From contig PYIY01000082.1 of assembly GCA_003635195.1 (NCBI GenBank), positions 1 to 64,000 on the forward strand: a stretch of 64,000 bases of DNA, given 5' to 3'. A program made the position numbers and the translations under genes. Of this stretch, positions 20,494-40,509 are shown piece by piece. Within the stretch, counting starts at the first letter, position 1. Each line of letters opens with the position of its first letter. The notes below the pieces were generated by a model. That model was given only the letters and a program-made list of their open reading frames with translations. It did not search any database and was not told the DNA's origin. Origin of the DNA: Candidatus Poribacteria bacterium (GTDB lineage Bacteria > Poribacteria > WGA-4E > WGA-3G).

Positions 20494-23400
20494 GTTTCAA
20501 TCTCGTAATCGAGATACTTTTCTTTTCAAGAATATTGGTACTGTTCTTTCAACGAGTGTCTCATCTTTATCGTTTCAATCTCGTAATCGAGATACTTTTC
20601 TTTTCAAGTCCGGGAATTCTGTTTACATCATCGAACGCGATCTGTTTCAATCTCGTAATCGAGATACTTTTCTTTTTAAGTAGAAAATTGAGCGGGTGTT
20701 GACGTTCTTTACCGAAATGTTTCAATCTCGTAATCGAGATACTTTTCTTTTCAAGGCTCACACGCCCCTGCCCTCTTTATTCGCCTATCAAGTTTCAATC
20801 TCGTAATCGAGATACTTTTCTTTTCAAGTTACAAGCAATAGGATAGGTTGGGTTTACGAAATCACTGTTTCAATCTCGTAATCGAGATACTTTTCTTTTC
20901 AAGCAAAGCAATCTCAACCGTCCTATCGCTTGACCCTGTAGTTTCAATCTCGTAATCGAGATACTTTTCTTTTCAAGAACTTTACCGCTGGATTCAATAA
21001 AACCTGTCGGGTCTGAGTTTCAATCTCGTAATCGAGATACTTTTCTTTTCAAGACTGTCCCGGAAGTAGTTAGGCGTGCCGTCATAGAAGTTTCAATCTC
21101 GTAATCGAGATACTTTTCTTTTCAAGTAGGACTTCAGCAAAGGGGTCAGAGAACGACAAGGTAGGTTTCAATCTCGTAATCGAGATACTTTTCTTTTCAA
21201 GATCCGAAGTCACCACTGCTCGACCAGAACAACTACGTTTCAATCTCGTAATCGAGATACTTTTCTTTTCAAGTTAGGAGGTATTTATATGATAGGTTTC
21301 TTTGATCTCGAGTTTCAATCTCGTAATCGAGATACTTTTCTTTTCAAGTGAATTGTAAAAGTGCTGGTGTCCCGTATTTCTTTAGTTTCAATCTCGTAAT
21401 CGAGATACTTTTCTTTTCAAGTCTTTGCTCAACGGGGATACGTCTTGTATCTGTTTGGTTTCAATCTCGTAATCGAGATACTTTTCTTTTCAAGCAGGGA
21501 CTTTGGATACGGCAGGTGCAGCCGTAGGAATGTTTCAATCTCGTAATCGAGATACTTTTCTTTTCAAGTGTGTATCCATTCTCGATAATGGAATATGCTT
21601 TCGCTGTTTCAATCTCGTAATCGAGATACTTTTCTTTTCAAGTTGTGGACGACATTCCATTACCTGTTCCCGCACGTGTTGTTTCAATCTCGTAATCGAG
21701 ATACTTTTCTTTTCAAGTGCAGGCAAGAATCACCAGATGGAAAACGCTATCCGAGTTTCAATCTCGTAATCGAGATACTTTTCTTTTCAAGAAACATTTG
21801 GAGCTATAAGAAGGGCTGCACATGGCACGTTTCAATCTCGTAATCGAGATACTTTTCTTTTCAAGTGCTATAACCCGACCACTCGGATACAGGATAAATC
21901 TATGTTTCAATCTCGTAATCGAGATACTTTTCTTTTCAAGACAACAATTGTCGCTGAACCGACGCACACATTCCTGCGTTTCAATCTCGTAATCGAGATA
22001 CTTTTCTTTTCAAGCATGTATCTCAAGGGAGAGGTGTGATACAGTTTCTCAGTTTCAATCTCGTAATCGAGATACTTTTCTTTTCAAGCCGATAGCGATG
22101 ATGTACCGTATGCATCTATCGTTGGTTTCAATCTCGTAATCGAGATACTTTTCTTTTCAAGGCAAGCAAAGCAAAGCGGAGCAACGCGAACAGGAAAAGT
22201 TTCAATCTCGTAATCGAGATACTTTTCTTTTCAAGGATAGCGTGACAGCGTCTTTGACTTCAAAGCGTAAAAGTTTCAATCTCGTAATCGAGATACTTTT
22301 CTTTTCAAGTGACGTAGCAGGCTTTGTTACCCACGCCAGCAGGTTGTTTCAATCTCGTAATCGAGATACTTTTCTTTTCAAGATTTTCAGACCACTGATG
22401 AACAACACAGGATCGGTAAGTTTCAATCTCGTAATCGAGATACTTTTCTTTTCAAGAAACGGATGTTATCAACCGTAACGGTAGCGAATTTCTGTTTCAA
22501 TCTCGTAATCGAGATACTTTTCTTTTCAAGTTCTGCGCGAAGTCGTTACCGCGGATAGGATTCAAGTTTCAATCTCGTAATCGAGATACTTTTCTTTTCA
22601 AGTTTTTCTTTAGGTATCATGCAACCCTTATTGTTTAAGTTTCAATCTCGTAATCGAGATACTTTTCTTTTCAAGGGGGTTATCATTCTCTCAATCTGTT
22701 TCGCTTATTGCTGTTTCAATCTCGTAATCGAGATACTTTTCTTTTCAAGCCTCGTCTGGTATGCTCGTGAGAATAATATCGAATTGTTTCAATCTCGTAA
22801 TCGAGATACTTTTCTTTTCAAGCATCTTCAAACACTATATCATACAAATAGTAAGTAGTTTCAATCTCGTAATCGAGATACTTTTCTTTTCAAGAACGGA
22901 TCCGCATCTAATGCACCTTCCTTTCGTTCTGTTTCAATCTCGTAATCGAGATACTTTTCTTTTCAAGACTGGATGCGACACAGAAGCATACTGCAGAATT
23001 CTTGTTTCAATCTCGTAATCGAGATACTTTTCTTTTCAAGTCAAATGCTTAGTATAGATCGTTTCATGACAGTCTGGTTTCAATCTCGTAATCGAGATAC
23101 TTTTCTTTTCAAGTGGTTATTCTGAGGATGTTCTTTTTCCGTTTGATTAGTTTCAATCTCGTAATCGAGATACTTTTCTTTTCAAGCTATTGTTTACCCT
23201 ACGACTGAGTGTTCTGATTACCGATGTTTCAATCTCGTAATCGAGATACTTTTCTTTTCAAGCGAATAAGTTGCGAATTCGCAACCCTGTCGTCCTACAC
23301 GCAGTTTCAATCTCGTAATCGAGATACTTTTCTTTTCAAGCTCACTGAAATACCAGCAGTTCAAACCCGGTGTACGAGTTTCAATCTCGTAATCGAGATA

Positions 23401-26387
23401 CTTTTCTTTTCAAGCTTATTAACGCTTACAACGACTTCACACTTGACAGGTTTCAATCTCGTAATCGAGATACTTTTCTTTTCAAGGAAAATGTTTCAGT
23501 TGGTGGTGAATTGAAATCTGTGGAGTTTCAATCTCGTAATCGAGATACTTTTCTTTTCAAGCACATCATCAATGACACTCCAATAAAAGAAACACCTTTA
23601 AGTTTCAATCTCGTAATCGAGATACTTTTCTTTTCAAGCCAATGACCTTTTTGGTGTAATAGACAGAGCTAATGTTTCAATCTCGTAATCGAGATACTTT
23701 TCTTTTCAAGCACTACGCCTTCATTTGCCTTCAGCGCAATTGACGTGTTTCAATCTCGTAATCGAGATACTTTTCTTTTCAAGTAATGAGGTCCCACCGC
23801 ATGTGCATAAAGACCAGCATGTTTCAATCTCGTAATCGAGATACTTTTCTTTTCAAGGAAGTCGCCATATTTATTAGCGACCGCCAAGCTTTGGAGTTTC
23901 AATCTCGTAATCGAGATACTTTTCTTTTCAAGAACGACTTGCGGGGTTGGAGCAGGAATCGGCACGCGGTTTCAATCTCGTAATCGAGATACTTTTCTTT
24001 TCAAGGGTAATGGAGGTAGTATAGGGTATTTATAGTTTAACAGTTTCAATCTCGTAATCGAGATACTTTTCTTTTCAAGGTTGCAATCGTGCTTGGATAG
24101 ACCACCCTTTCAGGAATAGTTTCAATCTCGTAATCGAGATACTTTTCTTTTCAAGCACCGACCTATGAATTTTGCAACACCGTCTGCTTTCTCGTTTCAA
24201 TCTCGTAATCGAGATACTTTTCTTTTCAAGGCAAGCACTTCGTTGGAAACTTTGGTAAACTTCATAGTTTCAATCTCGTAATCGAGATACTTTTCTTTTC
24301 AAGTACAGGGAAAACGCCCTGCGCGTCTACTTGCGATTTTGTTTCAATCTCGTAATCGAGATACTTTTCTTTTCAAGAATGATTTAGGAGATGACATGTT
24401 ATATTTAATCAACCGTTTCAATCTCGTAATCGAGATACTTTTCTTTTCAAGCGATTCCTATGTATTTGCATAGGTTGCGAAATTCGCGTTTCAATCTCGT
24501 AATCGAGATACTTTTCTTTTCAAGCGAACCACAGGAAGATTTAAACAACTGGCAATGGCTGTTTCAATCTCGTAATCGAGATACTTTTCTTTTCAAGAGT
24601 TTCAGGTGTTGTCGGTGCTTTTGCGTAAGCATCGTTTCAATCTCGTAATCGAGATACTTTTCTTTTCAAGCCAGCAACGCCGAGCGCAAAGGCGCAAAGA
24701 GAACAGTTTCAATCTCGTAATCGAGATACTTTTCTTTTCAAGAGGGCGCAAAAATAACGGTACATCATGGTCAACCCACGTTTCAATCTCGTAATCGAGA
24801 TACTTTTCTTTTCAAGACTGTTATGGCGAAAAGGGCTGAGGAGGTCTCGTTCTTGTTTCAATCTCGTAATCGAGATACTTTTCTTTTCAAGTATGGTGTT
24901 TTTCAACTCCGAGACACGCCTCGCAAAGTTTCAATCTCGTAATCGAGATACTTTTCTTTTCAAGTCAGGAGAAATACAACCTACACTACATCGAACCCGA
25001 ATTGTTTCAATCTCGTAATCGAGATACTTTTCTTTTCAAGCAACGTGTCATCATCCGCCTCAAAAACCCAATCAGAGTTTCAATCTCGTAATCGAGATAC
25101 TTTTCTTTTCAAGTTTGGTGCTATAACAAACCGAGATGTAGAGTCTTTATGTTTCAATCTCGTAATCGAGATACTTTTCTTTTCAAGAAGACTGCACCCT
25201 TTTCCATTTTCTCGATAACACCTGTTTCAATCTCGTAATCGAGATACTTTTCTTTTCAAGCTGGCGATATCCAGTCCGCCGCGGAAGTACTTACGCAGAG
25301 TTTCAATCTCGTAATCGAGATACTTTTCTTTTCAAGCCAGATAGGGTCATCTATGCGGTAAGGGTTATCATGTTTCAATCTCGTAATCGAGATACTTTTC
25401 TTTTCAAGCGACATCGGTGAATAACGCTTGTTATGGGAGCATAAAATGGTTTCAATCTCGTAATCGAGATACTTTTCTTTTCAAGAAGTCAAGAATTTGA
25501 CCTTCATAGAGACGGATCACGTTATGTTTCAATCTCGTAATCGAGATACTTTTCTTTTCAAGAGTGTGGTTACATCGGTTCCCAACGACAGTAGACGCGT
25601 TTCAATCTCGTAATCGAGATACTTTTCTTTTCAAGGAACGACCATGTGGTAGAAGCAGATATAAATGACCATATGTTTCAATCTCGTAATCGAGATACTT
25701 TTCTTTTCAAGACCTATTTTTCGTTACCCGTGCCGACATTATCCTGGCGAAGTTTCAATCTCGTAATCGAGATACTTTTCTTTTCAAGTCTCCGCACAAA
25801 TCACGTAGGGCAGTGTGGATATGCTTTCGTTTCAATCTCGTAATCGAGATACTTTTCTTTTCAAGTCGGCAAGCAGTCAAAACGTATAAAAACTATTATC
25901 GCAGTTTCAATCTCGTAATCGAGATACTTTTCTTTTCAAGAGTGACAACAGAAGGTTGGAGCGCAGGAAATTTCTCTATGTTTCAATCTCGTAATCGAGA
26001 TACTTTTCTTTTCAAGCACCAGTTAAATATCGGCGCACCGAACACGGTTCTGTTTCAATCTCGTAATCGAGATACTTTTCTTTTCAAGGTGGCAAGCGAT
26101 TGACGCTACACAATTCCAAAAGACCAGTTTCAATCTCGTAATCGAGATACTTTTCTTTTCAAGCCATTGCATCGCAGCGCGTTTATCTGCGTCTGACCAC
26201 TTGTTTCAATCTCGTAATCGAGATACTTTTCTTTTCAAGGACCCACTGGGGTGGGCAATCTTGATAATCACTTTTATGTTTCAATCTCGTAATCGAGATA
26301 CTTTTCTTTTCAAGGAGGTTGAACGGCTACGTCGCGATCTATGAGCAGATGTTTCAATCTCGTAATCGAGATACTTTTCTTTTCAAG
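20494..26387 (-). CRISPR. CRISPR array, 80 repeats / 79 spacers, 37-nt repeat; inferred transcription on the minus strand
   Basis: Direct count of repeat starts from 20494 to 26351, pitch 72-78 nt (spacers 35-41 nt). Minus-strand repeat CTTGAAAAGAAAAGTATCTCGATTACGAGATTGAAAC has a TCTCG-ATTA-CGAGA hairpin followed by ATTGAAAC. The only variant repeat noticed (20644-20680) is near the left, distal end. Confidence 0.98.
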
Positions 26388-26576
26388 AGCCGCCCACCAG
26401 AACCCTTGCCGCACGTGCCTCAATTATAGGCATTTCTGTGCGCGAGGTATTTTGTCGTAACCACAAACGCCAGAAATATACCAATGGAAGTACAAAAGCA
26501 CGAGTCATAAGGGTTTTCACCTCTCTATGAGGGACAAGGGTTTTTCGATCCCTTTCCGATCATAGAAATAATCTTT
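26388..26576 (-). promoter_or_regulatory. Candidate CRISPR leader
   Basis: Noncoding DNA between the array's cas-proximal end and cas2; TATAAT on the minus strand (26423-26428) 35 nt before the first repeat. Confidence 0.5.
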
Positions 26577-26725: not shown

Positions 26726-26998
26726 TTACACGATGTATGACTGTTCGTCAAGTCCTTTTTTTACGCCGATCCGGTTAATCTGTTTTTCACAGGCTCCACA
26801 GAGATGGTAAAATGTAATCGTATCCTCACTGAAATCGATCACCTTCTCCAATCGGTTCTGCAAGCGTAATAGGGCACGGCGATCCGTGTTGCACTCAAAG
26901 ACACTAAACTGGATACGATTCCCAAAATCCTTCAGAATCTTGGCGACCTTGTTTCGACGTTTGTCATCGGTTATATCATAAGCGACTGTATAATGCAT
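26726..26998 (-). CDS. cas2: CRISPR-associated endonuclease Cas2
   Basis: MHYTVAYDITDDKRRNKVAKILKDFGNRIQFSVFEC; ATG at 26998 preceded by a GAGGAG SD. Confidence 0.93.
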   Translation of the reverse strand: MHYTVAYDITDDKRRNKVAKILKDFGNRIQFSVFECNTDRRALLRLQNRLEKVIDFSEDTITFYHLCGACEKQINRIGVKKGLDEQSYIV

Positions 26999-27004
26999 TG
27001 GTAA

Positions 27005-27110
27005 CTCCTCAGTCAAGGTACCCACTACCTAAAGGTAGGGGCTTGTGCTTCATAGCAGTAAGCGTTTTTCTCTGAGAGAAACCCGTCTGACAACTGCTCC
27101 ACAATAGCGG
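27005..27110 (-). mobile_element. IS200/IS605-type right-end remnant between cas1 and cas2
   Basis: agtcaaggtacccactacctaaaggtaggggcttgt (+) aligns with the reverse complement of the tnpB element right end (agtcaactacccaagcctaaagacttgggcttgt). Confidence 0.5.
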
Positions 27111-27229
27111 CCAAGCCAGCTATGCACCGAAGTGCCTGATCTTATACGGCATGTGATTTGTCAACGAGTGCGGACGTTACTCCTGCTACTCTATCCATAC
27201 TCTTCCTCGGATGTTTACGGGTTTTGGTC

Positions 27230-28870
27230 TTATCGAACCGTCAATGGCGTATATTGATCGATTTCACCTGTTAGGTATTTCGCCAAGAGCCGTACTTGCA
27301 ATTCCATTGCACGCCGAAATGTGAGTTTATACTTAAAAAGCGGATGCGTAATCGTCTCGTTTTTCCGCGTTTCGTAAGCCGTATAAAACACCTTCCGACG
27401 ATGATCCTTGAGATACCAGCCACCGTGAGACTGCGTGAAATCATCAATCTTGATCCGCCGGTTATTGATGAGCGTAATCACGACGGAGTCCGCAATAATA
27501 GGACGGAATTCCTCCATCAAATCAAGGGCAAGGCACGGTTTGCCGTATTTCAACTGATGAAAGAAACCGACATAAGGATCCAACCCGACCGTCTGTATGG
27601 CTGAGATGATATCCGCTGTCAGCAGTGAATACGCGAAACTTAACAGCGCATTCGTCGCATCCGCGGGTGGACGCCGACTTCGCCGTTGGAAATCAAAACC
27701 CATCTCTGATTTGAGCATAAAGTTGAATGCCCCGAAATATGCAGCAGAAGCGTTGCCTTCTATGCCCAGTAACCCTGAAAGTTCAGTCGCCTTGTCAATA
27801 CGCTTCTCCATCGCTTGTATTGCCTTAATATTAGCGAGCAACGGTTCCAATGCTGAATCTGTGCTGTCTGGAGATTGCCATTTCCGGCGTTGGAGCATCA
27901 TCCGCATGTTCGCCACTTTTCCGCGCACAAACGCTTTCGAGAGGTCAAGGCAGGCATCTGGACTATTCGCGACTTTGTGTTGGGCACACCGCAACAACGA
28001 ATTTCGGGACACTTGCGGGGTCAACGCGCCATGATACCGTCCATAAGCAGAAAGAAACACAACAGGGATGCCCTCATGCAAGAGGGTCTGCATCGCAGGT
28101 GTGGTGAGGTTAACGTTGCCAGAGATAACGACTTGGCCGAGATGGATAATCGGAATATCTCTAATAATCTCGTTTTCCCTCGCGACAAGGATACGTTCAC
28201 CTGTCTTTTTGATAGCACATCCCGGTTCATCAACATAAAGCACATTATCGACACCAAGCGCAGGTTTGATCCGTTTTGGACGCTCGTCTAACTCGTGGAG
28301 ATAGGCGACTTCATCAGGGAGGCAGATTGGACGGACACTACAACCGTTGCATCGATTATCATGAACCGGTTTCGGAATCTTTCTCGAATCCAAGAGCGAG
28401 CGTGCCTCTGCTACATAACGCAGCGTTGTCTCTCGGAGTTCGCTATCAAAAGGGACCTTCCGTCGCCGCTTAGAACCGATGTAGAAAACATAGCCGTGTG
28501 GAATCGAGATTCCTGTTTTCTCCTCTAATAAGAGTCCTTGTAAGCAGAGTTGTACTTGATCGTTTAGCCAATCGCCGGTGCCTGCTTTTTTGAATTCAAT
28601 TGGATATGGGATGCCGTCTCTTTCTTCAACGAGGTCGGTGTAGCCGGAGACACCGAGTGCATCGGAGGCGAGGTATTGTCGGCGCGAAATGGTTTTGTCT
28701 CCTTTTTTCCGATCGGTCACGGCTGTATGGACATGCTCATGCTTGATTTTGCCTTCTTCAACGTGGTCGTTGACGACTTGATGCCCTTCAATCGATTCAT
28801 AATAAAACCGTCGAGGACAAAACACGTAAGTATTTACTTGTGAAAGTGGGATATAATTCTTCTCAGACAT
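27230..28870 (-). CDS. cas4-cas1: Cas4-Cas1 fusion protein
   Basis: N-terminal Cas4 (QVNTYVFCPRRFYYE, IEFKKA, RCNGCSVRPIC) joined to Cas1 (LLGIEGNASAAYFGAF, NALLSFAYSLLTADI, PCLALDLMEEFRPIIAD). Confidence 0.93.
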   Translation of the reverse strand: MSEKNYIPLSQVNTYVFCPRRFYYESIEGHQVVNDHVEEGKIKHEHVHTAVTDRKKGDKTISRRQYLASDALGVSGYTDLVEERDGIPYPIEFKKAGTGDWLNDQVQLCLQGLLLEEKTGISIPHGYVFYIGSKRRRKVPFDSELRETTLRYVAEARSLLDSRKIPKPVHDNRCNGCSVRPICLPDEVAYLHELDERPKRIKPALGVDNVLYVDEPGCAIKKTGERILVARENEIIRDIPIIHLGQVVISGNVNLTTPAMQTLLHEGIPVVFLSAYGRYHGALTPQVSRNSLLRCAQHKVANSPDACLDLSKAFVRGKVANMRMMLQRRKWQSPDSTDSALEPLLANIKAIQAMEKRIDKATELSGLLGIEGNASAAYFGAFNFMLKSEMGFDFQRRSRRPPADATNALLSFAYSLLTADIISAIQTVGLDPYVGFFHQLKYGKPCLALDLMEEFRPIIADSVVITLINNRRIKIDDFTQSHGGWYLKDHRRKVFYTAYETRKNETITHPLFKYKLTFRRAMELQVRLLAKYLTGEIDQYTPLTVR

Positions 28871-28909
28871 GCTAACCGCTCCTTTTTTCCAATCTTCTAT
28901 CCTGTCAAT

Positions 28910-29740
28910 CTACTGTATTCTTCTTGTTTGTCCCATCCCCATTGTTGTCTTATAGCCCGTGCCGCAATAGAATGCAAAGGCTGCTAAGCAATTGACGGTT
29001 CGGAGCAGCTCTGTATCCAGCGAATCTTCGGGATAGAAAACACAAGCATAGGTGCCGACCCACCCAGATTCAATATGCTTTCCGAAGTGGAGTCTCTTCG
29101 ATTTAGCATCGACGCTGGTCACCTGTCCATACTCCGTAACGAATTCCAAGATTTCGGTTTTATCAAGTTTTATAGGTGCGAAGGCGTTCCACTTGTTAAC
29201 CCAACTCTGATAGCACCGGACGATATCTACATAATCCTCGTTGCGGGTTTTCTGACCGCGCGGGGTCATCCTACGGAAGGCGGTCGGCGAATAGAAACGG
29301 AAACTCATCCGGGTATCCGTTTTTGCGGATTGAACGAGTTCGGCGTAGGTTTCGCTTTTGCCCCAGCTGCGTTCCTCTGTAGCATGTGAGACCATCTGTC
29401 TTACCTGAAAGACTGCTTCTCCCAAGCGAATAGGCGGCATCGCCAGTGTCAAGAATGCTTTCCCGAAGTGTTGAAATAGCTCATCATCAAGAAAGGTGAA
29501 TCGGAGTTTGCACTCGGTGCCTGCCCTGATATGAAGTAGGTTATTACGTTTTTTCGCTTCAGCAATGAGCGGCGAAACGGTAAAAGGTTTTTGTGCTGCG
29601 TGGGCATGAACGGCTTCCGCAACCTCTGGATTGCTCTCTTTAAGGATAGAGAGGAACGCTGCGTGGGCATAATGTCCCATCGTTGGACGGAGTGTAACAT
29701 CGGTTTCGGGTATGAGTGAGATGTGTGTGCTGATCGGCAT
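28910..29740 (-). CDS. cas6: Cas6 endoribonuclease
   Basis: RAMP fold with C-terminal glycine-rich motif CGTGYKTTMGMGQTR; position in the cas operon. Confidence 0.85.
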   Translation of the reverse strand: MPISTHISLIPETDVTLRPTMGHYAHAAFLSILKESNPEVAEAVHAHAAQKPFTVSPLIAEAKKRNNLLHIRAGTECKLRFTFLDDELFQHFGKAFLTLAMPPIRLGEAVFQVRQMVSHATEERSWGKSETYAELVQSAKTDTRMSFRFYSPTAFRRMTPRGQKTRNEDYVDIVRCYQSWVNKWNAFAPIKLDKTEILEFVTEYGQVTSVDAKSKRLHFGKHIESGWVGTYACVFYPEDSLDTELLRTVNCLAAFAFYCGTGYKTTMGMGQTRRIQ

Positions 29741-29754
29741 GAGTGGGTCTCCTT

Positions 29755-32061
29755 TTACGTGGCAGCAGTTTGATCTTTCTCTTTCCATTTGCCTTGCAAC
29801 TCTGCATGAATTAGAAACGCTTGGGATCCGAGAATTAATTGATACTCCTGTTGTCCATCATTAAAGGTTACATTCAGTGGATAGGAAAATTGTCCTCTCG
29901 TTTCAAGTATGTTGTTAAGGGCGTACTGATTTTCTCGCTTCGATAAAAGACATGTAATGTACCCTTTTTTCTTCAGAGCATCCTGCATTTCAAGCGGAAC
30001 AGATTCCAATCGTAAGCCTTTTAATGCGGTGGGTCCCCAACAGTGTTGACGTTCAAAGGACTCTCGATCAATCCCACCAGCATCGTAATTGAATTGAACA
30101 CGGGTTGGTGGCGTTTTTAAACGATTCGCCTGCACGAAAAATTCGCAATAATTTCCCCAATCTCCTGTGAGTTCATGATACTTTTCCTTTGTCGGAATAA
30201 TGATAAACTCATAATGTGATAGAACATGAAACAGGTCATATTCGGTGTGTTTTGCAGTATTCTGGAACAGATGATTCGGGTCATAGATACCGCAACGAAT
30301 GCCGATGTCCGAACCGCGAAAGTTAAAGAGCGACTGAATAGGGGTGTATTTCTGCTCCGCGTACGCAACAATTTCCGAGCGGTTGTTTTTGAGAAGTGTC
30401 GCAAGTATTACTTTCTCCTTTTCTTTTGGTAACTGTTCAAAGGTTTCCAGTTCCCCTTTCATCCATGCTTGGTATCGACAGTAACTCCACGCAGTGCGTT
30501 CCCATTGATGTCGGATATAATCGTTGTAGGTATTGTCTTTGAAAGCATTAATGACAATTTCATAGGTAACATGCCACTGAATTTTTTTAAACATTTCCTC
30601 AAATGTTGTGTCGCTCTGTGGTGCGAAAACCTGTTGGATTGTCTCAAAGAGTTCTTTAATTCTGTCTTGCCGTTCTTCAAGTGTTCGCCTATAAAGTTCG
30701 TAAAGCGGATAGAATGCCTCAAGCACTGCATAGGACTGAATGTAGTGGTAAAACTGGTTATCCTCTCCTAGCGACTCTTTAACGAGTGTTGCAAATTCTC
30801 GGCGGTCATAAGTTTTCTCTGGCTGTAATTGTGTGTGAAGTTTTCCTTGTACAAATGCGTGCGCAATGCTGGCGTGCGTGGTGTCATCCTTACCGAGCAA
30901 TCTACCTGTCCGTCCAATCCGCTGTGTGAATTCTGATCCGTAAAGTGCGTCAAAACAGACGAAATCAATGTTCTGTCGTGATTTATCCATTTTTTTGAAA
31001 TTATACCCGATGTCCACTGTAGGCGTTGCGAGAACAAGTGGAAACGACTCTGTTGCCTTACGTCTCTCATCTGTCGCGACTGCACCGGTGATCAATCCGA
31101 TTTTTTCTCTCAATCCTGCCGCTTGTAGTGTCTGTTTAATTTCATTAATGGTTCGGAGAAAACTACTGATAATCGCGCCTTCTTTTCCTAAATGCAGCGG
31201 ATCACTAATCCATTCAGGGTGCGCCTTAAGTAGATTCTGCATTTTGCCACTGTGTATTGTCAATTCAACTTCAGAAAGTGTCTGTATCTTTTCATAACTG
31301 TTGCTTTCAATTGGTTCATTGTTTGGGCTGATGCTCTCATACTTTAACCCAATTGTGTCAAGATAAGCGAGTACCTTCTCATCGGGTGTTGCCGAAAGCA
31401 GGCAGACCTTCCGTTTGTTATTATCAAAGTAACCAAATTCCTTAGACAGAATGAAAAACATCAGAAAGTTGGCGATCTGTTTGGCGTTGTAGTAGTGAAA
31501 CTCGTCAACGACGATGTAGTTGAAATCTTGTAAGAAATGATGGAATAGGTTAGCCGTATCCAGTTTCGAGTAAACGCTGTAAAAGCAGAGGTAAAAAATA
31601 TCGGGGTTTGTGACGAAAATTAAGGGAGCTTGCCGTGTTACCTTGGGAAAATAGGCACTCGGATTTTGGATCAATTCGTGCAGTTTTCTCGGATTTCTAA
31701 GACGATAACCGGGGTCATCAATGACTTCCCATTCACGGAGTTTCTGACCCGTGACTTCAGCAACATAGAAATCCAATCCGTGTTCCTCAACAAACTCTCG
31801 AATGTCGTTTGCGTGTTGATGAATCAACTCGTTCGTCGGTGCGATGAACAAAACGTTATCGTTTTTCAAATCGAAAAGCTGGAGCAACGCAGCACGAGTT
31901 TTTCCTGTTCCTGTGTTGTAGGTGTTGATGACAAGATCGTTTGTCTTGAGGGCATCATAGGTGCGTTGCTGATGGTAGAGTGGTGGGTGTTTTAAGCCAA
32001 GCTCATTTGTTGGACTAATTTTTTCATAGCCCGCGTTTAGATTAATCGTGATCTCTGACAT
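29755..32061 (-). CDS. cas3: Cas3' helicase without HD domain (type I-D)
   Basis: Walker A NTGTGKTRAA, DEFH box VVDEFHYY, motif VI RIGRTGRL; no N-terminal HD. Confidence 0.9.
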   Translation of the reverse strand: MSEITINLNAGYEKISPTNELGLKHPPLYHQQRTYDALKTNDLVINTYNTGTGKTRAALLQLFDLKNDNVLFIAPTNELIHQHANDIREFVEEHGLDFYVAEVTGQKLREWEVIDDPGYRLRNPRKLHELIQNPSAYFPKVTRQAPLIFVTNPDIFYLCFYSVYSKLDTANLFHHFLQDFNYIVVDEFHYYNAKQIANFLMFFILSKEFGYFDNNKRKVCLLSATPDEKVLAYLDTIGLKYESISPNNEPIESNSYEKIQTLSEVELTIHSGKMQNLLKAHPEWISDPLHLGKEGAIISSFLRTINEIKQTLQAAGLREKIGLITGAVATDERRKATESFPLVLATPTVDIGYNFKKMDKSRQNIDFVCFDALYGSEFTQRIGRTGRLLGKDDTTHASIAHAFVQGKLHTQLQPEKTYDRREFATLVKESLGEDNQFYHYIQSYAVLEAFYPLYELYRRTLEERQDRIKELFETIQQVFAPQSDTTFEEMFKKIQWHVTYEIVINAFKDNTYNDYIRHQWERTAWSYCRYQAWMKGELETFEQLPKEKEKVILATLLKNNRSEIVAYAEQKYTPIQSLFNFRGSDIGIRCGIYDPNHLFQNTAKHTEYDLFHVLSHYEFIIIPTKEKYHELTGDWGNYCEFFVQANRLKTPPTRVQFNYDAGGIDRESFERQHCWGPTALKGLRLESVPLEMQDALKKKGYITCLLSKRENQYALNNILETRGQFSYPLNVTFNDGQQEYQLILGSQAFLIHAELQGKWKEKDQTAAT

Positions 32062-32142
32062 AGCAAAACCTCTAAAGAACTTGTAGGGTGTGCTTGCAAT
32101 TGTTCCATAGGCACGACACACCCTACAGAAATTTAGTTCAGT

Positions 32143-32859
32143 CTAAAAATCGGTGTAAAATTGCATCTGTGCTGGTAGTAGCGTTTTATCACCATCCGCC
32201 AGTTCATAGAAATCCCCAGACAATTGGACTTGGCGAATTAGCGGTGCCGGGCGGATATTGAGCAGGTCGAACATGCCAATTTGTGTTTCAGACGGTAGAT
32301 CGTTTGGATTCAGATAATCTCGGTAAGGCACGTCTTGGGCATGGACTTCGCGATAGTGCTGCTTGTAAGCAGAGATTTTCGCTTTGCTCATGAACTTACC
32401 GAGGCGGATATAACGCGGCACTCGAAATTCGTTACGGCTAGTGAGATAGAAAACCCCTTTGTTGCCTATAGACAGCAGCTTCAACCTTCCAATCTGTGGG
32501 AAATTCGTCGCCCGTGCCTTCAAGCGTGGATTGAAAATGCGTTCCCGATCGACTGAGATCGCGTTCTGTTCCATCTGATACCAATATGAATCAGAAAGGG
32601 CGTTGAATCGCGTGACCGTGAAACGTGGTTTTTCAGTCAATGTGCCGGGTGTAACATAGATACCCGCCTCGTTGAGTTTTTCCAAATCCTGAGCGTAGGT
32701 GATTTCAGCGTCGTTATGGTAACTTGCACTGCACAATCCAAGCGCATAGGCGAGAGCGTAATTACCGATGACCGCTTCTGTCTGAAAGAAGTTGTTTACC
32801 TCGCGGCTGGCGAAAAAGAGATTTTCCATGAGTTGAAACTCACAACGATAAATATGCAT
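32143..32859 (-). CDS. csc1: Csc1 (Cas5 of type I-D)
   Basis: MHIYRCEFQLMENLFFASREVN...ETEAVIGNYALAYALG-like RAMP; between csc2 and cas3'; ATG at 32859. Confidence 0.85.
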   Translation of the reverse strand: MHIYRCEFQLMENLFFASREVNNFFQTEAVIGNYALAYALGLCSASYHNDAEITYAQDLEKLNEAGIYVTPGTLTEKPRFTVTRFNALSDSYWYQMEQNAISVDRERIFNPRLKARATNFPQIGRLKLLSIGNKGVFYLTSRNEFRVPRYIRLGKFMSKAKISAYKQHYREVHAQDVPYRDYLNPNDLPSETQIGMFDLLNIRPAPLIRQVQLSGDFYELADGDKTLLPAQMQFYTDF

Positions 32860-32905
32860 AAGATACCTCCAATGTAGGATAGGGTTACCTATCCTACGTT
32901 TCACG

Positions 32906-33877
32906 CTAGCGATAGAGTTCTGTAATGCTATCTAACAGCCCTTTCACCTCATCTGACGACGCGAATTTTTGCTGAATTTCACTAATTAAGGCAGTTATGT
33001 CAGACTCAGTGAGCGGTTGCACCGTGCCTATCACTTCACCCGTTAACGCTCTAACCGCATCGGTAATCACTGATTCAACCTTGTTTTCGTCAAGTGGAAA
33101 CTGTCTACCCTCTGGACCGAGACGGTCATAAACACACTGCGTTAACTCCAAATTACTGAAGATCTCACAATCACTGAAAATGGCACCGACAAGGGTGTTC
33201 CGCATCTTGCCAAGCCGCGAGGAGATAGCCCCGTAACGACGACTCCGCAACACGTTCGCTATGACGTAGTGGATCTCGTCCACTGTCAAATCTTTGAGGG
33301 TCTGCATGTCAACGAACAGTGTTTCCGGCTTGACATACTCATCCTCTTGAATGCTTGAGGATGCCTGTCCAGTAACCGGATCGCGCATTGTGTTGTTATC
33401 ATATAGCGCGTTGAATGTCCGCTTTGCTGTGACGGTTTGGTAGGGTAAAACGCTGAAGGCATCGTCCGTGATGACGCGAGATTTTTGCGCGCCACCGCCC
33501 CCGACAGCATAACCGTAAATCATGCAGTCAGCACACTGTGCACATGGGTTGTTGCGATTGAGCGCGCAAATGTTTTCCTCTGTTGCGTCTCCAGTGTAGA
33601 ATAGTAAGGCATGCTGTCGCAGGAGTTCGCGACCTGTGCGCCGTTCAACAGCAGTCTGTTTACGTTTGCTAATCGTCACGCGAGAGATGGGATCGCGGTT
33701 TTCCTCCTCAAGTCCAGCGTGGACTGTATCTCGGCTTAACCCTTCACCAGAACCCTCTGTGCGGAAGATCATCTCTGATTCTGCCTTCCGTAACACAATT
33801 AGCGTCAGATAACGGCTCTGTGGAAAGTTTTCGTATTCATCGACTATAAAGTCAGTGTATTTATCAAGCGTACTCAT
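32906..33877 (-). CDS. csc2: Csc2 (Cas7 of type I-D)
   Basis: CALNRNNPCAQCADCMIYGYAVGGGGAQKSRVITDDAFSVLPY, typical of Csc2. Confidence 0.92.
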   Translation of the reverse strand: MSTLDKYTDFIVDEYENFPQSRYLTLIVLRKAESEMIFRTEGSGEGLSRDTVHAGLEEENRDPISRVTISKRKQTAVERRTGRELLRQHALLFYTGDATEENICALNRNNPCAQCADCMIYGYAVGGGGAQKSRVITDDAFSVLPYQTVTAKRTFNALYDNNTMRDPVTGQASSSIQEDEYVKPETLFVDMQTLKDLTVDEIHYVIANVLRSRRYGAISSRLGKMRNTLVGAIFSDCEIFSNLELTQCVYDRLGPEGRQFPLDENKVESVITDAVRALTGEVIGTVQPLTESDITALISEIQQKFASSDEVKGLLDSITELYR

Positions 33878-36756
33878 GATTGTTGTTCCTCCTTGTCTCT
33901 ATCGCGTTTTGGAATCATTTCGGTAATAAAATAAAGATATCCAGAACGAATCCGTTTTCGGTTTTCAAGCAAGTTAAGCAAATTGCCTTGATAAACGCCT
34001 TTGTAGATATGATCAAAAAGAACGGTGACAAATTGCGAGATGTTCTCCAATTTTTTCGCGCCAAAGAACCGCTTATCAAGACGCTCAATCGCTCGAGCGA
34101 CCTCTTTAGACATAATAGCCCGCGCCTCTTCTTCGGTTTCATGCTCCGACTGCCAGCGTTCAAGGCTGTCAAAGGCAACATCAAGTGGTTTGGCGAGTGA
34201 ATTATCTTTGAGACTGTCGCCCTTCAACTGCCCTTCCCACGCAATACGAGCGAGTTCTTTAATGTGAGACATAATCGTATCTCCTCCTTTCTGTGCCACG
34301 ACATCGGCAATAAGTTGCACAGTGTCGCGGACGGTTACGAACTGTCGCGGTTCATTTCCGGCTTGTTCGCGTTTAATCATTCGGTGGGTTACATAGTAGA
34401 GTTCAAGTACATCGTAATTTAAACTCCGAATCAAACGTACCAGATCATCCGTGTCAATACTTCCGATTTTCGATCGGATAGTATGCAACTTGAGCAGTTG
34501 TTCAAATACTTGTTGAGTTATATCATGGTTGAGATTGTTATCCGGCAACCATCCCCGAAATGCGGGAGGGATATGGTCGATGAAAAGGTGGCTGAATTCA
34601 TCGCTGGAAAAGAGTGGAATCGACGAATCGGTCAGCACTGCCCGGCACCCTAAAAAGCGTTGATATAACAAAGCATTTTCAATGGCAAATAAAATATTCT
34701 CTGTATGATTGTTCCCAGGCGTATTAACCGGAATCGTTAAAATGTTTCCAAGTGCCTCCGAGAACTTCGGCAGTGGATTTCCGTTGACTTTCGTTCGTGA
34801 AAACGTTAATTCCAACTGTGTCCTTTCCTGATAACTCCGGAGAACATCGTCTGTCTTGAGAAACACGGACGGAAAATCAGGATTGTGGAATTTTTCCTGT
34901 GCTCGTTGAAAAGCTCGAATAAAAACATCAGTAAAAAAGGAAATTGGGTACAGATGGATAAAAAACGTCGCTGTGCTACCGCCGACATTGTAACAGAGTT
35001 TGTTAAGCATGTATTGGGTTCGGCATACACTACAGACGCGGCGTTTCGGCTCACGTGATGATCCACCTTCAAGCCGATTGGAAAACTGTTGCACCTTGAT
35101 ATTCGCTGGTACATCTGGTTTCATCCACAATGCTGTATCAAATTCGGAACCGCAGGTACTACACTGAACGTGGTTATCCTCAACATAACGTTTTAGGTTT
35201 ATGTCAAAACCTCGTTTCCTATCAGCAACAAAGTTGAAATCAACGTATTTGAGAACGTAATCGACCAACAGTCCAAATTCGCTTTCGGTTTCTAAAGTCC
35301 CTAACAATTGGGTGCCGTCTTGGACAATCAACGCGTAAATCTCATCAAACTCACGACCGGCATTGTGAAGATCGCGTCCGATGATGTAGCCGCGGTCCCA
35401 AAGGGCATTAAATAATGCATATCGCTCACGATAGGCTGTATCCTCAGCATTCAATGGCAATTCAAGCAGTCCGTAGATATGTAACCACGCGTCGGTGACG
35501 GTCTCAGAGAAATGCTTATTCAGGAAGATATAGTATGTTCTCACCAACTCCCCGATCCGCATAGCGTCATCATCGGGGGGTAGCCGGTAGGTTTCCGTAT
35601 CTAAGATTTCACCGAGCAGCGTCCGCTGTCCAACCGTTCCTTCTGGGGTAAAAAGAGGTGGTTGTTCACCTTGCTGCTCAACGGCATTCGGATCCGGCTC
35701 GCCCAATTTATCTCGAATTCCCTCAAGTCTTTCCCGACACTTTATGTTCATGGCATCCACTTTCGCGTTTGCGACGTACTTGCGCTCGCTGATGATATTT
35801 CGGACTTCATTCCAAATTTCTGCGAAAGATACGCCGAGTGCAATACACTTTTCATCAACTTTTATACCGGCGGGGCTGCCTTGAATAAACTTGATGAATT
35901 CTCCACGAGTTTTTGACTCAATAGTATGGACAACAGCGTTTCCAATTTCAGCAATTTCATCAGTTGTGATGTGGATGTCGCGTTCCCGATCAACAAGATA
36001 CGCTACACCATCAGGATAATAAAGCAGCGGTAGCAAATCTTTTTCCGATTCCAGATACTTCACAATCTCGTTGTGTATAAGGTTCGTCAGAATACCGCGC
36101 TGTTCGCTTACTTTATGGTATACGAATTTGTACTGAACATCACAGATACTGTTGATTTCCAAAAGAAAATCTCGTTTCTTTGGACGTTCCTCAAGCGTTT
36201 TCGAGAGGTCAATCACATCTATCGCTCGGATGATCGGGACCAGGTAGTTTAGGAGTCTGTCTTTATCCAGCGAATATGGATCGTAACGCTGATCAAGGGT
36301 TTCACCGTAGGTGTTATGGAAGCGTGAATGGGCACGGACCAGGACCTCAATATCCTTCAAATAATCTTGCCATTCCGGGAAGAAGTGATCTATCTCAAGA
36401 TCCGCCAATACGCCACTAATGTTTTCAGCGTTTGCCAAATAGTTAAACGAACGCTTTGTTTCCTGAAATTCTTCAAGCTTGTTCAGATCGTGGACGCTGA
36501 AAGCACCGAATAGAACCTGGATCTCAAAGTCTGTCAAATCCAAAATTGGACGTAACCGTTCCAAGACACAAATCCCGTTAAGAATGTGGAGGTAGAGCGA
36601 TTCACCAGCTTTCGCGCCATATTGGATAATTTCCTGATAGGCACGCAATTTTCGGTTGGCGATTTTGTCCATATAACTTTGAAAGAGGTTCTCCGTATCC
36701 GAATCAATTCCAAAGGTAAATAATAAATCTTCAATTTCGGATTTCCGTTTTGCCAT
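33874..36756 (-). CDS. cas10d: Cas10d (Csc3) with N-terminal HD nuclease domain
   Basis: FGAFSVHDLNKLEEF HD motif, CSTCG...CSVC zinc-binding cysteines, position upstream of csc2; ATG at 36756. Confidence 0.9.
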   Translation of the reverse strand: MAKRKSEIEDLLFTFGIDSDTENLFQSYMDKIANRKLRAYQEIIQYGAKAGESLYLHILNGICVLERLRPILDLTDFEIQVLFGAFSVHDLNKLEEFQETKRSFNYLANAENISGVLADLEIDHFFPEWQDYLKDIEVLVRAHSRFHNTYGETLDQRYDPYSLDKDRLLNYLVPIIRAIDVIDLSKTLEERPKKRDFLLEINSICDVQYKFVYHKVSEQRGILTNLIHNEIVKYLESEKDLLPLLYYPDGVAYLVDRERDIHITTDEIAEIGNAVVHTIESKTRGEFIKFIQGSPAGIKVDEKCIALGVSFAEIWNEVRNIISERKYVANAKVDAMNIKCRERLEGIRDKLGEPDPNAVEQQGEQPPLFTPEGTVGQRTLLGEILDTETYRLPPDDDAMRIGELVRTYYIFLNKHFSETVTDAWLHIYGLLELPLNAEDTAYRERYALFNALWDRGYIIGRDLHNAGREFDEIYALIVQDGTQLLGTLETESEFGLLVDYVLKYVDFNFVADRKRGFDINLKRYVEDNHVQCSTCGSEFDTALWMKPDVPANIKVQQFSNRLEGGSSREPKRRVCSVCRTQYMLNKLCYNVGGSTATFFIHLYPISFFTDVFIRAFQRAQEKFHNPDFPSVFLKTDDVLRSYQERTQLELTFSRTKVNGNPLPKFSEALGNILTIPVNTPGNNHTENILFAIENALLYQRFLGCRAVLTDSSIPLFSSDEFSHLFIDHIPPAFRGWLPDNNLNHDITQQVFEQLLKLHTIRSKIGSIDTDDLVRLIRSLNYDVLELYYVTHRMIKREQAGNEPRQFVTVRDTVQLIADVVAQKGGDTIMSHIKELARIAWEGQLKGDSLKDNSLAKPLDVAFDSLERWQSEHETEEEARAIMSKEVARAIERLDKRFFGAKKLENISQFVTVLFDHIYKGVYQGNLLNLLENRKRIRSGYLYFITEMIPKRDRDKEEQQS

Positions 36757-36835
36757 GATGTCTCCTTTCCAATTGCGTTGATTTGGGCTGATGTATAATC
36801 GCGCAAACCGGCAATTGATTTTCAATCTTCCTTAA

Positions 36836-36864
36836 ATTATACCATATAAAATTAGTGTTTTACA
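36836..36864 (-). promoter_or_regulatory. Candidate cas operon promoter
   Basis: TATAAT on the minus strand (36836-36841) about 80 nt upstream of cas10d; weak -35. Confidence 0.4.
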
Positions 36865-36950
36865 CAAATTTCAAAAAATTCGACCTAAAAATGCAGAAAT
36901 CCAGTCTTTTTTGGTCTTTTTTGAAAAAAATCAGAAATTGCGAAAATTCC

Positions 36951-36985: not shown

Positions 36986-37240
36986 GTGTAATCACTTGCA
37001 GAAGTAAAGTAGCAGCCGAAAACTGTTGCGTATGCCGAGCTGCTTATCGACCAGTCGGTAAGATAGGTTGCCCACCTTTTCACCAAGGTGGTTTTCTGCC
37101 GGAGAACAGACATCTAAAAACATTAGATGAGAATCAGAAGTAAAATCGCAGCCGAAAACTGTTGCGTATGCCATGTTGCCTGTTAAGCCGGTTAGCAGGC
37201 TAGGTTGCCCACCCTCTCACCAAGGTGGTTTTCTGTAGTT
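36986..37240 (+). ncRNA. Unannotated structured ncRNA unit A (two motifs, 36999-37098 and 37135-37235)
   Basis: Each motif has GCAGC...GCTGC/GTTGC closing stem, a variable-sequence hairpin and a terminator-like CCACC...GGTGG-TTTTCTG hairpin. G-U pairs occur only when read on +. Confidence 0.7.
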
Positions 37241-37429: not shown

Positions 37430-37655
37430 GATAATTCACTTGCAGAAGTAAAGTAGCAGCCGAAAACTATTGCGTAGGCTGAGCTGCCTACCGACCGGTC
37501 GGTAGGATAGGTTGCCCACCTTCTCGCTAAGGTGGTTTTCTGTCGGTTCCCAGAAGTAAAATCGCAGCCGAAAACTATTGCGTAGGCTGAGTTGTCTCCT
37601 GGCCGGCTGGGAGAATAGGTTGCCCACTCTCTGACGAGGGTGGTTTTCTGTTTTA
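37430..37655 (+). ncRNA. Unannotated structured ncRNA unit B (two motifs, 37443-37542 and 37551-37650)
   Basis: Paralogous to unit A including promoter region; hairpin CCTACCGACCGGTCGGTAGG and terminator-like hairpins. Confidence 0.7.
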
Positions 37656-38252
37656 AAGTTCAACAAGACTACCGCGTTGCTTTGCCTCCGAAAAAAGTGT
37701 CTCAAGATCAGGAGCTTGGTGCTTAAGCAATTCCCCTGCAGCACCAGCTAGGGCATCGGCTAATCGGATGAGAGGTTCATTTTCATCTTTTGAAACTCGA
37801 ATTACCTTTTTTACCGGAAAGCCGAGTTGACGTAAGCCCGTTTTATAAGCACTACGTTTGGCTTTTGCCAGACCGTCAACATAAACGTACACATGAGAAT
37901 TAGAAGGGCTTAACCTGAGTATTGCTTTCGCAATACCATCAATTGTTGCAGCATCGTAATCTGTCCTTTTACGGAAGACACTATAAAACAACGTGACGTT
38001 GAGAGTGGCCGCCTTTTGAATCACAGCACGTAGGTAGTCCAAACGTCTACTTCTTTCTGAAGATGCCCACTTCTTTTTTCTCTTGCCCGAAGTTTCTTCA
38101 AAAGATTCACAAAGTTGACGAAGTTTATCACTGTCCTCTACCGCTACCACAGCGACGATGAACAATCGGCCTCTTGTATCTTGTCCAGATTCGTCAATGT
38201 AGAGGTCCACGCGTTTTTGATTTGCAACCACTGGTTTGGTGTTGCTGCCCAT
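37653..38252 (-). CDS. DUF3800 domain-containing protein
   Basis: VDLYIDESGQDTRGRLFIVAVVAVED and VYVYVDGLAK...IRLADALAGA, typical of DUF3800 (RNase H-like fold prediction). Confidence 0.8.
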   Translation of the reverse strand: MGSNTKPVVANQKRVDLYIDESGQDTRGRLFIVAVVAVEDSDKLRQLCESFEETSGKRKKKWASSERSRRLDYLRAVIQKAATLNVTLFYSVFRKRTDYDAATIDGIAKAILRLSPSNSHVYVYVDGLAKAKRSAYKTGLRQLGFPVKKVIRVSKDENEPLIRLADALAGAAGELLKHQAPDLETLFSEAKQRGSLVEL

Positions 38253-38304
38253 TCCATTCTATCTCATTTTTTTGTTGCATACGAAAACACTAATAACATA
38301 ATAT

Positions 38305-38333
38305 AGTATAACTGCATTTTGTGGAAATGTCAA
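38305..38333 (-). promoter_or_regulatory. Promoter of the DUF3800 gene
   Basis: Minus strand TTGACA (38333-38328), 17-nt spacer, TATACT (38310-38305); predicted start near 38298. Confidence 0.8.
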
Positions 38334-38334
38334 A

Positions 38335-38442
38335 TTTTTTATCTCGTAATCGAGAATCTTTTTGTTAAAATGTCGAAATGCGGCATACGAAAACTCTAAT
38401 TTTTCAATCTCGCCCTCAAGAATCTTATTTGCCACAATCGTA
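38335..38442 (-). ncRNA. CreA/CreR-like crRNA-resembling RNA: degenerate repeat (38437-38401), 29-nt spacer (38400-38372), degenerate repeat (38371-38335)
   Basis: Repeat-like segments match the array repeat at about 23/37 and 27/37 with the hairpin preserved in both; consensus promoter upstream; guide matches the adjacent gene's start region. Confidence 0.8.
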
Positions 38443-38448
38443 CATAAT

Positions 38449-38477
38449 ATTATATATCGCTGAGATTGGTCTGTCAA
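38449..38477 (-). promoter_or_regulatory. Consensus sigma70 promoter of the crRNA-like gene
   Basis: Minus strand TTGACA (38477-38472), 17-nt spacer, TATAAT (38454-38449). Confidence 0.85.
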
Positions 38478-38539: not shown

Positions 38540-39559
38540 TTACAAATCCTCAGCGTAGATTCCATGCATCCGGCGTACAATCTCGCCAAATTCCGCCCGG
38601 AATTCTGGTGGGTCCAAGACCTCTACCGCATCGCCGAGACTCAATACCCAAAATGTGAAGTCTTCTTTCGGGACCTCATAACGGACAATCACAGATCCAT
38701 CTGGGCACCGTTCTATAATCTCTTGTGACCGATGCCGTTCCTTTTCCGTAATGAGATACGCTTTGTGTGCCGCGATTTTGAGCGTCACGGTAATCGGATC
38801 CCCGCTAAAGAGTTCCCATCGAGAATCCAAATTTTCGGACAATGAGAAATCTGGAGGGGGCTCAAACGTTTCCTCTGTCAATTCAACTTCCTGAAAGCGG
38901 AGGATTTTGAAGGTAAGAGACACATTCTCTGATAAATTAGAGTGCGCCTCAAGATACCAATCATCTTTACGGAAAAAGATAGCATACGGGTGGAGCATAT
39001 GTTCAATAGGGTCTGTTTTCCCACCCGGTAGATAACTTGCACGCACCGCCCTTCGAGTTAGAAGTGCTTTCTCCAGCACGCCAAAATATCCATCACTCTC
39101 AGTGTGAAATCTATCTGATTTAAGCTGGATTGAGACGCTGTCGCTTTGGAGATAGTCCGATTCTGCCTCACGAAGAGTGTTTGCTTCCTTTTCTTGTAGT
39201 GCCTTTTCAATGTACCTCGCAAGTGGTGGGTGCAGTCTTTCCAAAAGGCTTTTGAGAGACTTGGAAAAACGCTGCTGCTTTGCAAGGGGTGAAGCCTCAA
39301 TCACCAATTTCAGATTCCGAGCTTCTTCCTTTGTAATACGAGGGGAAGGCATCTTGCGTTGCCCACGAATTCTATAGAAGCTCTGCCTTTTTTCCACAAT
39401 GTAGTACTCTTCCAGAATCTTCAGATCGCTATAGATACGGCTTTGATCAACATCATACAATCTTGCTAATGTAGCAACCTTCATGCCTGAAGATCTTTCC
39501 AGCGTCCTGACTAGATCCAAGATACGCTGTACCTGTTTTCTACCATCACTATATCCCAT
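38540..39559 (-). CDS. HTH-WYL domain transcriptional regulator
   Basis: N-terminal HTH (MKVATLARLYDVDQSRIYSDLKILEE), WYL-like region (VRASYLPGGK...LHPYAIFFRKDDWYLEAHS); likely start ATG at 39559. Confidence 0.85.
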   Translation of the reverse strand: MGYSDGRKQVQRILDLVRTLERSSGMKVATLARLYDVDQSRIYSDLKILEEYYIVEKRQSFYRIRGQRKMPSPRITKEEARNLKLVIEASPLAKQQRFSKSLKSLLERLHPPLARYIEKALQEKEANTLREAESDYLQSDSVSIQLKSDRFHTESDGYFGVLEKALLTRRAVRASYLPGGKTDPIEHMLHPYAIFFRKDDWYLEAHSNLSENVSLTFKILRFQEVELTEETFEPPPDFSLSENLDSRWELFSGDPITVTLKIAAHKAYLITEKERHRSQEIIERCPDGSVIVRYEVPKEDFTFWVLSLGDAVEVLDPPEFRAEFGEIVRRMHGIYAEDL

Positions 39560-40509
39560 ATCTTTCTCCTTTTGAATAGCTGTCAGAACCTCTCCAGCCA
39601 AACGGAAACAATCAGATATAACTATGTTAAGCATAACATAAGAAAATATCCAATGCAAATACCTCTTAGCCAAGGATATGTAAAATTTTTGACAGTAATG
39701 ACTCCCACGCTTTTGTAGAACGGGTTTTCAACCTCCATGTAGAAGCGATGATTTGATAGTAGGATGTCTTAAAATTCGCGTAATCTGAGTAATCCGCGAT
39801 TTGAGGTGGACACGCCCACATGCGACGCGCATTATCGCGCTTTGTATCCGTCCTGAAAAAATAAATTTGAACTCTCATATTATATATGTTATCATGTATA
39901 TACAAACCTAAATTAATTAAAAATATATAATGTATGAAAGGAGCATAGCGCGTAGGTTTTGATGAGCATCCTCAAAACCGGATAGCAAAATAAATCGTTG
40001 CCGACGACTGACTGACAACCAAACCAAATGTTACACTTTTCGCCAAATTATTTTTTTTTCCACAATGACAAGCAACAGCAAAATTGCCTCTAAACCCTTA
40101 CAGTGGCTAAGTTTATACCGATAATCAATTTACAGCAAATGTTACACTGGTGTAACATTTTTAGGACTTACGGACTTTACTCTTAAAATCCTCCTACCGC
40201 TCTGAAGAAACACCGTTTTTGCTTGGGCGTTTCTTAAGCAAACTCCCTATCGCAGATGTATTATTATATCGTTAATTTATATTTAACTCTAAATCTTACT
40301 ATAACCTAAGTTGCCACCTATTTGTGCACATAGCACTCCGCTGGAGTGCAAGAAATTGTAGACCCTATTCTATAGATATACCACCCCGCTGCGGTGAGGA
40401 AAATGCCTAAGCCTCTCGTTGGAACATTCGGAATTGGTTAGTGGCAGCTTGGGTTAAGTATAACAGAAAAAACGCTGAACGCAAACGTTCCCATCATATT
40501 AACAGGTAG

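Follow-up and report, generated by a model that had tools for sequence, protein, structure and literature searches.

A CreA-like guide predicted to repress a DUF3800 gene beside type I-D cas genes in Poribacteria

Layout of the locus and the guide-target match

Poribacteria are bacterial symbionts of sponges. In the window, the whole 64-kb stretch of poribacterial DNA analysed here, the minus strand carries in succession the gene of a WYL regulator, a degenerate mini-CRISPR (creA), a DUF3800 gene, RNA repeats and a type I-D cas operon. The regulator (38,540–39,673) is an HTH-WYL-WCX protein according to the Pfam WYL and WCX profiles, and it is a conserved neighbour found at most module loci. 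The cas genes (26,726–36,825; cas10d, csc2, csc1, cas3', cas6, cas4-cas1 and cas2) were annotated with Pfam, NCBIfam and PADLOC. Their assignment to type I-D is based on Csc2 by Pfam, Csc1, Csc3 and Cas3' by NCBIfam, and Cas10_Id by PADLOC. A CRISPR array of ~80 repeats, with the repeat CTTGAAAAGAAAAGTATCTCGATTACGAGATTGAAAC, occupies positions 20,495–26,390 on the same strand.

The mini-array begins with the promoter sequence TTGACA-N17-TATAAT (38,449–38,477), and a similar promoter precedes its first degenerate repeat, psiR1, in most homologues. psiR1 (38,401–38,437) retains an intact 8-nt handle, ATTGAAAA. It lies where a preliminary description had placed it, but our recount gives an ungapped identity to the array repeat of 22/37 rather than about 23/37. 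The 29-nt guide ATTAGAGTTTTCGTATGCCGCATTTCGAC (38,372–38,400), the seed of which varies in step with its target across 13 loci, is followed by the second degenerate repeat, psiR2 (38,335–38,371). As described before, psiR2 is about 27/37 identical to the array repeat (counted by eye) and keeps its hairpin when folded, whereas its handle has degenerated to ATAAAAAA. Next comes the DUF3800 promoter, TTGACA-N17-TATACT (38,305–38,333), also recognisable in homologues, and at the predicted start site a GTT PAM (38,297–38,295) directly precedes the protospacer (38,294–38,277). The positions of both promoters, the guide, psiR2, the PAM and the target, read on the minus strand, agree with those first given.

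The guide is identical to the protospacer at 17 of 18 positions, with a sole mismatch at position 6, as first described. A GTN PAM followed by a match to guide positions 1–5 and 7–11 occurs at this one site in the 64-kb window, both strands considered. The characterized archaeal CreA needs exactly positions 1–5 and 7–11 (PMC8501985), and type I-D effectors use a GTN PAM and flip out every sixth base (PMC9123187; PMC10212523). We also scanned 433 repeat handles from 36 loci, most of them belonging to array spacers, using shuffled flanks as a control. Eleven handles had a perfect GTN-plus-seed site within 400 nt downstream, all of them in ectopic mini-arrays, against 0.0 expected from the control. 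Thus, given its uniqueness in the window and the outcome of the handle scan, the match is beyond chance. A seed-site match of the array spacer at 24,487 was set aside, as it resembles a palindromic self-match.

Base pairing between the 5' part of psiR1 and the 3' half of the guide is possible, both in the window (38,437–38,372) and in homologues. The summed score of this long stem is 188, where the random mean is 163 and the random maximum 190, which is suggestive but statistically weak. In G060, the stem carries a matching change, from TGTGGCA/TGCCGCA to TGTGGTA/TACCGCA.

Guides, targets and cargo in other genomes

The search covered 86 genomes, 31 of which have Csc2, together with a scan of genome contigs. 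It identified 13 DUF3800-type creA modules spread over 12 Poribacteria genomes, that of the window contributing two of them. Guide and target are identical at positions 1–5 and 8–9 in all 13 loci, at position 7 in 12 and at positions 10–11 in 11 of them, while agreement falls to 6/13 at position 6, 4/13 at position 12 and at most 7/13 further on. This profile reads as the type I crRNA pattern in which every sixth base is free. Guide and target also bear matched changes, namely T to C at position 3 in G032, A to G and A to T at position 4 in G057 and G028, respectively, G/A at position 7, and T to C at position 9 in G074. When targets were permuted among the 13 loci, the observed fit was not reached in 200,000 tries (p ~5e-6), a value that is indicative only as the loci are related. 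The loss of the match in close relatives that retain the locus had been named beforehand as the outcome that would speak against the guide; what we found is that guide and target co-vary across the 13 loci, only positions 6 and 12 being free within the first 12. The PAM is GTT, GTC or GTG at 12 of the 13 loci. The exception, GCT in G060, and the weaker seeds of L097 and G055 count against the Cascade-guided repression proposed below.

The second locus of the same genome, on contig C29, comprises a WYL gene, a mini-array, a different DUF3800 gene and a type I-D cas3'. Its guide starts with ATTAGAA and its target with ATTAGTA, compared with ATTAGAG and ATTAGTG in the window. Position 7 has therefore changed in both partners, and position 6 is mismatched at both loci. 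The presence of a second DUF3800, only 24% identical to the first, behind the same kind of creA supports Cascade-guided repression.

Three further poribacterial loci have unrelated guides that match their own GTT-flanked sites in front of other cargo, with position 6 mismatched in all three. In G062, a mini-array after a WYL-family regulator has the guide ATGGTTGCGTTATA and the target GTT-ATGGTAGCGTTATA, followed by a 79-aa gene. In G022, the guide ATGATCTTGTTATG and the target GTT-ATGATATTGTTATG precede a homologue 53% identical to that gene. The G021 pair, ATGTTGGTATTATGT and GTT-ATGTTAGTATTATGT, precedes a 16-codon mini-ORF. Outside Poribacteria, a generic scan of type I-D loci of other phyla (genomes and five plasmids) yielded one new case, nearly all other matches being self-matches of array repeats. 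It is found on a Chloroflexota plasmid (Candidatus Chlorohelix, NZ_CP128402.1, L149:3841-4340), flanked by a WYL gene and the I-D cas3'. There, a degenerate repeat and the guide TACTTATATAGACT are followed 110 nt on by the target GTT-TACTTATATAGACT, a 50-aa ORF and I-D cas genes. From these comparisons the cargo behind creA appears to be exchangeable. The proposal of a CreA-type module thus gains support from the co-variation at 13 loci and from the unrelated guide-target pairs in three more genomes.

The effector next to creA-DUF3800 varies as well. We found two diverged I-D modules, in the order cas10d-csc2-csc1-cas3' (lineage A) or cas3'-cas10d-csc2-csc1 (lineage B), and a I-B effector in G032 (L062) and G073 (L063). 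PADLOC detected Cas8b, Cas7b and Cas5b on L063, and similar ORFs are present on L062. Both loci keep WYL-creA-DUF3800 and the same family of Cas6, Cas4-Cas1 and Cas2 as the I-D loci, which points to effector swapping under one module. The creA module is thus not tied to type I-D, since it is also found beside I-B effectors.

The DUF3800 protein and its RNA elements

The putative repressed cargo of the window is a 199-aa protein (37,653–38,252, minus strand). DUF3800 is the only Pfam domain assigned to it (PF12686; 37.8 bits for a gathering score of 21). An AlphaFold2 model built from an alignment of eight sequences (pLDDT 85.5) gave RNase HII (PDB 3p83 and 1eke) as its best fold match, with E ~1e-6 and a TM score of ~0.5; a sequence search of the PDB with the protein had no match. 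By motif, residues D20, E21, D126 and D166 would correspond to the D-E-D-D set of RNase HII. The comparison of the window and G060 genes gave a dN of 0.06 and a dS of 0.29, indicating that DUF3800 is under purifying selection. Nevertheless, two of the 13 genes are interrupted in draft assemblies, by a stop in G073 and a frameshift in G061, and in G060 the substitution E21K in the putative active site occurs together with the GCT PAM. These cases (L063:5195-5800, L065:4478-5049 and L071:711-1307) weigh against Cascade-guided repression and might reflect decay of the cargo or its control, or assembly errors. No relatives of DUF3800 were found in viral contigs or in plasmids.

Directly behind the DUF3800 gene, a ~100-nt structured RNA element is present four times on the minus strand (37,551–37,650, 37,443–37,542, 37,135–37,235 and 36,999–37,098). 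Such elements occur as two to four tandem copies straight after the gene and nowhere else in the genome of the window. An alignment of 45 copies defined four helices, with 14 of 25 pairs changed on both sides, and 93.6% of its cells pair, compared with 30–49% when the alignment is slid. A search of Rfam gave no match. The element also accompanies DUF3800 at L093:9599-9802, where creA is absent. Copies are present at L104:9119-9324 too, and the element persists at loci that have lost DUF3800. The DUF3800b loci have a different element, a 41-nt hairpin, GCAGGRCCTACAYCCACCRCCGAGGGAGGGTTCAGTCCTGC, which is found once in the genome of the window. It follows DUF3800b and also lies in several promoter regions of I-D loci (L003:4721-4761 on the minus strand, L064:9679-9719, L083:2209-2249, L084:6441-6481 and L087:8979-9019).

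A probably Cascade-repressed cargo and alternative readings

A Cascade guide is the only explanation that we could sustain, because of the pairing rules, the PAM, the register of the handle and the co-evolution of guide and target. On sequence grounds, the guide-target relation is almost certainly real. The mini-array would then be a creA-like gene, with the local Cas6 cutting its transcript before the product is loaded into the type I-D effector. The loaded effector would bind the DUF3800 start site through the GTN PAM and pairing at positions 1–5 and 7–11, thereby blocking transcription. Repression is the likely outcome of a target at the start site, and the match, presumably too short to license cutting, argues against cleavage. 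Processing by Cas6 and binding by Cascade are predicted steps, and repression of DUF3800 by the creA-guided effector is very probable. Once released by the loss or inhibition of Cascade, through mutation or an anti-CRISPR, DUF3800 would be expected to harm the cell or induce dormancy. As a whole, creA-guided Cascade repression of DUF3800 as a harmful or dormancy-inducing cargo is the best explanation, with a probability of roughly 0.8. The toxin or sentinel role on its own, proposed because of the resemblance to CreTA and CrePA and the exchange of cargo, is somewhat favoured.

The main rival to the toxin role keeps the same Cascade-guided repression but casts DUF3800 as a nuclease that is regulated for use in defence or as a CRISPR accessory, such as a backup effector or an anti-anti-CRISPR sentinel, rather than an addiction toxin. 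It is a serious though less probable option. Some V-A2 and VI-F loci encode DUF3800 proteins with an RNase H fold as accessories (PMC12669027; PMC10910872), and the cas genes are retained at many related I-D loci from which DUF3800 has been lost. Moreover, L093:8077-12578 encodes ParA, Antitox_RHH, DUF3800, two RNA elements and Cas6 before a further type I cas operon, creA being absent; the occurrence of DUF3800 behind an antitoxin-like RHH gene without creA also counts against the reading as a creA-controlled toxin. On the other side, creA is strictly paired with an intact gene, being also absent where the 5' part of DUF3800 is missing (L073, L078-L083, L085, L101 and L099), and unrelated cargo has been exchanged. 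This resembles toxin-antitoxin turnover more closely but is not decisive.

Another possibility, which we find rather unlikely, is that DUF3800 and the tandem RNA constitute by themselves a toxin-antitoxin pair of protein and RNA resembling type III, with creA as a second lock. The tandem arrangement right behind DUF3800, the strong covariation and the restriction of the elements to this site of the genome favour it, as do their association with DUF3800 outside creA control in L093 and their persistence where the protein has been lost. In known type III pairs, however, the RNA lies upstream of the protein gene, whereas here it is downstream, and the elements could instead act as substrates, as terminators or as a guide RNA. 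Such a pair would be compatible with creA-guided repression of DUF3800.

The preliminary description had also likened the element to CreR RNAs, which target cas promoters. In that case the guide would mainly control the cas operon, either at a site within its promoter or because transcription from the DUF3800 promoter runs on into the operon. CreR-type autoregulation is known for types I-B, I-E and V-A (PMC13131331), and on the plus strand at 36,851, ATTAGTGTTTTAC matches guide positions 1–5 and 7–11. Yet AAA stands in place of a GTN PAM, and the site is half of a palindrome, TTTTGCGTAAAACGCAAAT / ATTWGTGTAAAACACTAAT (36,851–36,869, minus strand), located just before the -10 element. At WYL-linked loci the palindrome is present with or without creA, and the altered guides of G032, G057, G028 and G074 have no counterpart in it. 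Furthermore, a separate conserved promoter serves the cas genes; it lies ~830 nt downstream of the DUF3800 stop and is unchanged at loci without creA. Since the seed-like site lacks a PAM and the palindrome is conserved without creA, this part of the description is unsupported, and autoregulation seems very improbable. The palindrome is likely an operator, perhaps bound by the WYL regulator.

The least credible reading dispenses with a guide and treats the two copies as protein-binding operators, for instance of the WYL regulator, or as a local duplication whose copies gene conversion keeps similar; the copies are indeed merely ~100–130 nt apart and the cas-promoter palindrome resembles the seed, but copy 1 invariably starts right at the repeat handle, copy 2 has a GTN-like PAM before it in every case, identity ends after the seed with positions 6 and 12 free, three loci with wholly different sequence pairs obey the same rules, and the palindrome is independent of guide changes. 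On register, position profile and this independence we rejected the WYL-operator version.

Among known systems, CreTA was described for type I-B of haloarchaea and type I-F of Acinetobacter. Its psiR1 is the more diverged repeat but keeps the handle, while psiR2 has lost it (PMC9458426). The window shares with it an ectopic degenerate mini-CRISPR adjoining cas genes, the same asymmetry between psiR1 (handle kept) and psiR2 (handle degenerate), and a PAM-flanked partial seed match at the promoter of the gene that follows. In contrast with CreT, a small RNA, the window cargo is a conserved protein (199–215 aa across loci), the mini-ORF of G021 being the sole likeness to a small cargo. The Poribacterial module also differs in its setting, type I-D with a sibling I-B, and in the structured RNA repeats of the DUF3800 gene. 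CrePA, which according to a review (PMC12737573) combines CreA with a protein toxin that is typically a KilA-N protein, similarly has a creA-like guide with a target at the promoter of a protein-coding cargo, here presumably repressed. It differs in its KilA-N cargo, a domain that Pfam did not detect in the RNase HII-fold DUF3800 protein of the window. As in CreR, degenerate repeats close to the cas genes are predicted to yield a crRNA-like RNA, but there is no PAM-flanked match in the cas promoter. The V-A2 and VI-F DUF3800 accessory proteins and the Rfam DUF3800-I/-IX motifs likewise associate an RNase H-like fold and ncRNA with CRISPR-Cas, but the window differs in its type I system, the probable repression by creA and an RNA without Rfam match. 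We found no report in the open literature of CreTA-, CreR- or CrePA-type modules in type I-D or with DUF3800, and state this novelty with reserve. The module is probably best filed as CreTA/CrePA-like, the host system being type I-D and the cargo a nuclease gene.

More tentatively, the locus may represent a cassette slot under the control of Cascade, in I-D and its sibling I-B, in which the DUF3800 nuclease is doubly restrained, by Cascade and by its own RNA, and acts as a sentinel for CRISPR loss. If Cascade-guided repression holds, creA guides co-evolve with interchangeable cargo, mainly a DUF3800 nuclease of RNase HII fold with a dedicated tandem RNA, and CRISPR-repressed modules would extend to type I-D in two phyla. 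The co-evolution record would display natural pairing rules, with a seed at positions 1–5 and 7–11, free positions 6 and 12, and a GTN PAM. DUF3800, a domain of unknown function that recurs near CRISPR-Cas systems and ncRNAs, would gain a testable role. Finally, these analyses suggest that the position behind creA accommodates exchangeable toxins or sentinels, which makes it a place to look for new cargo.
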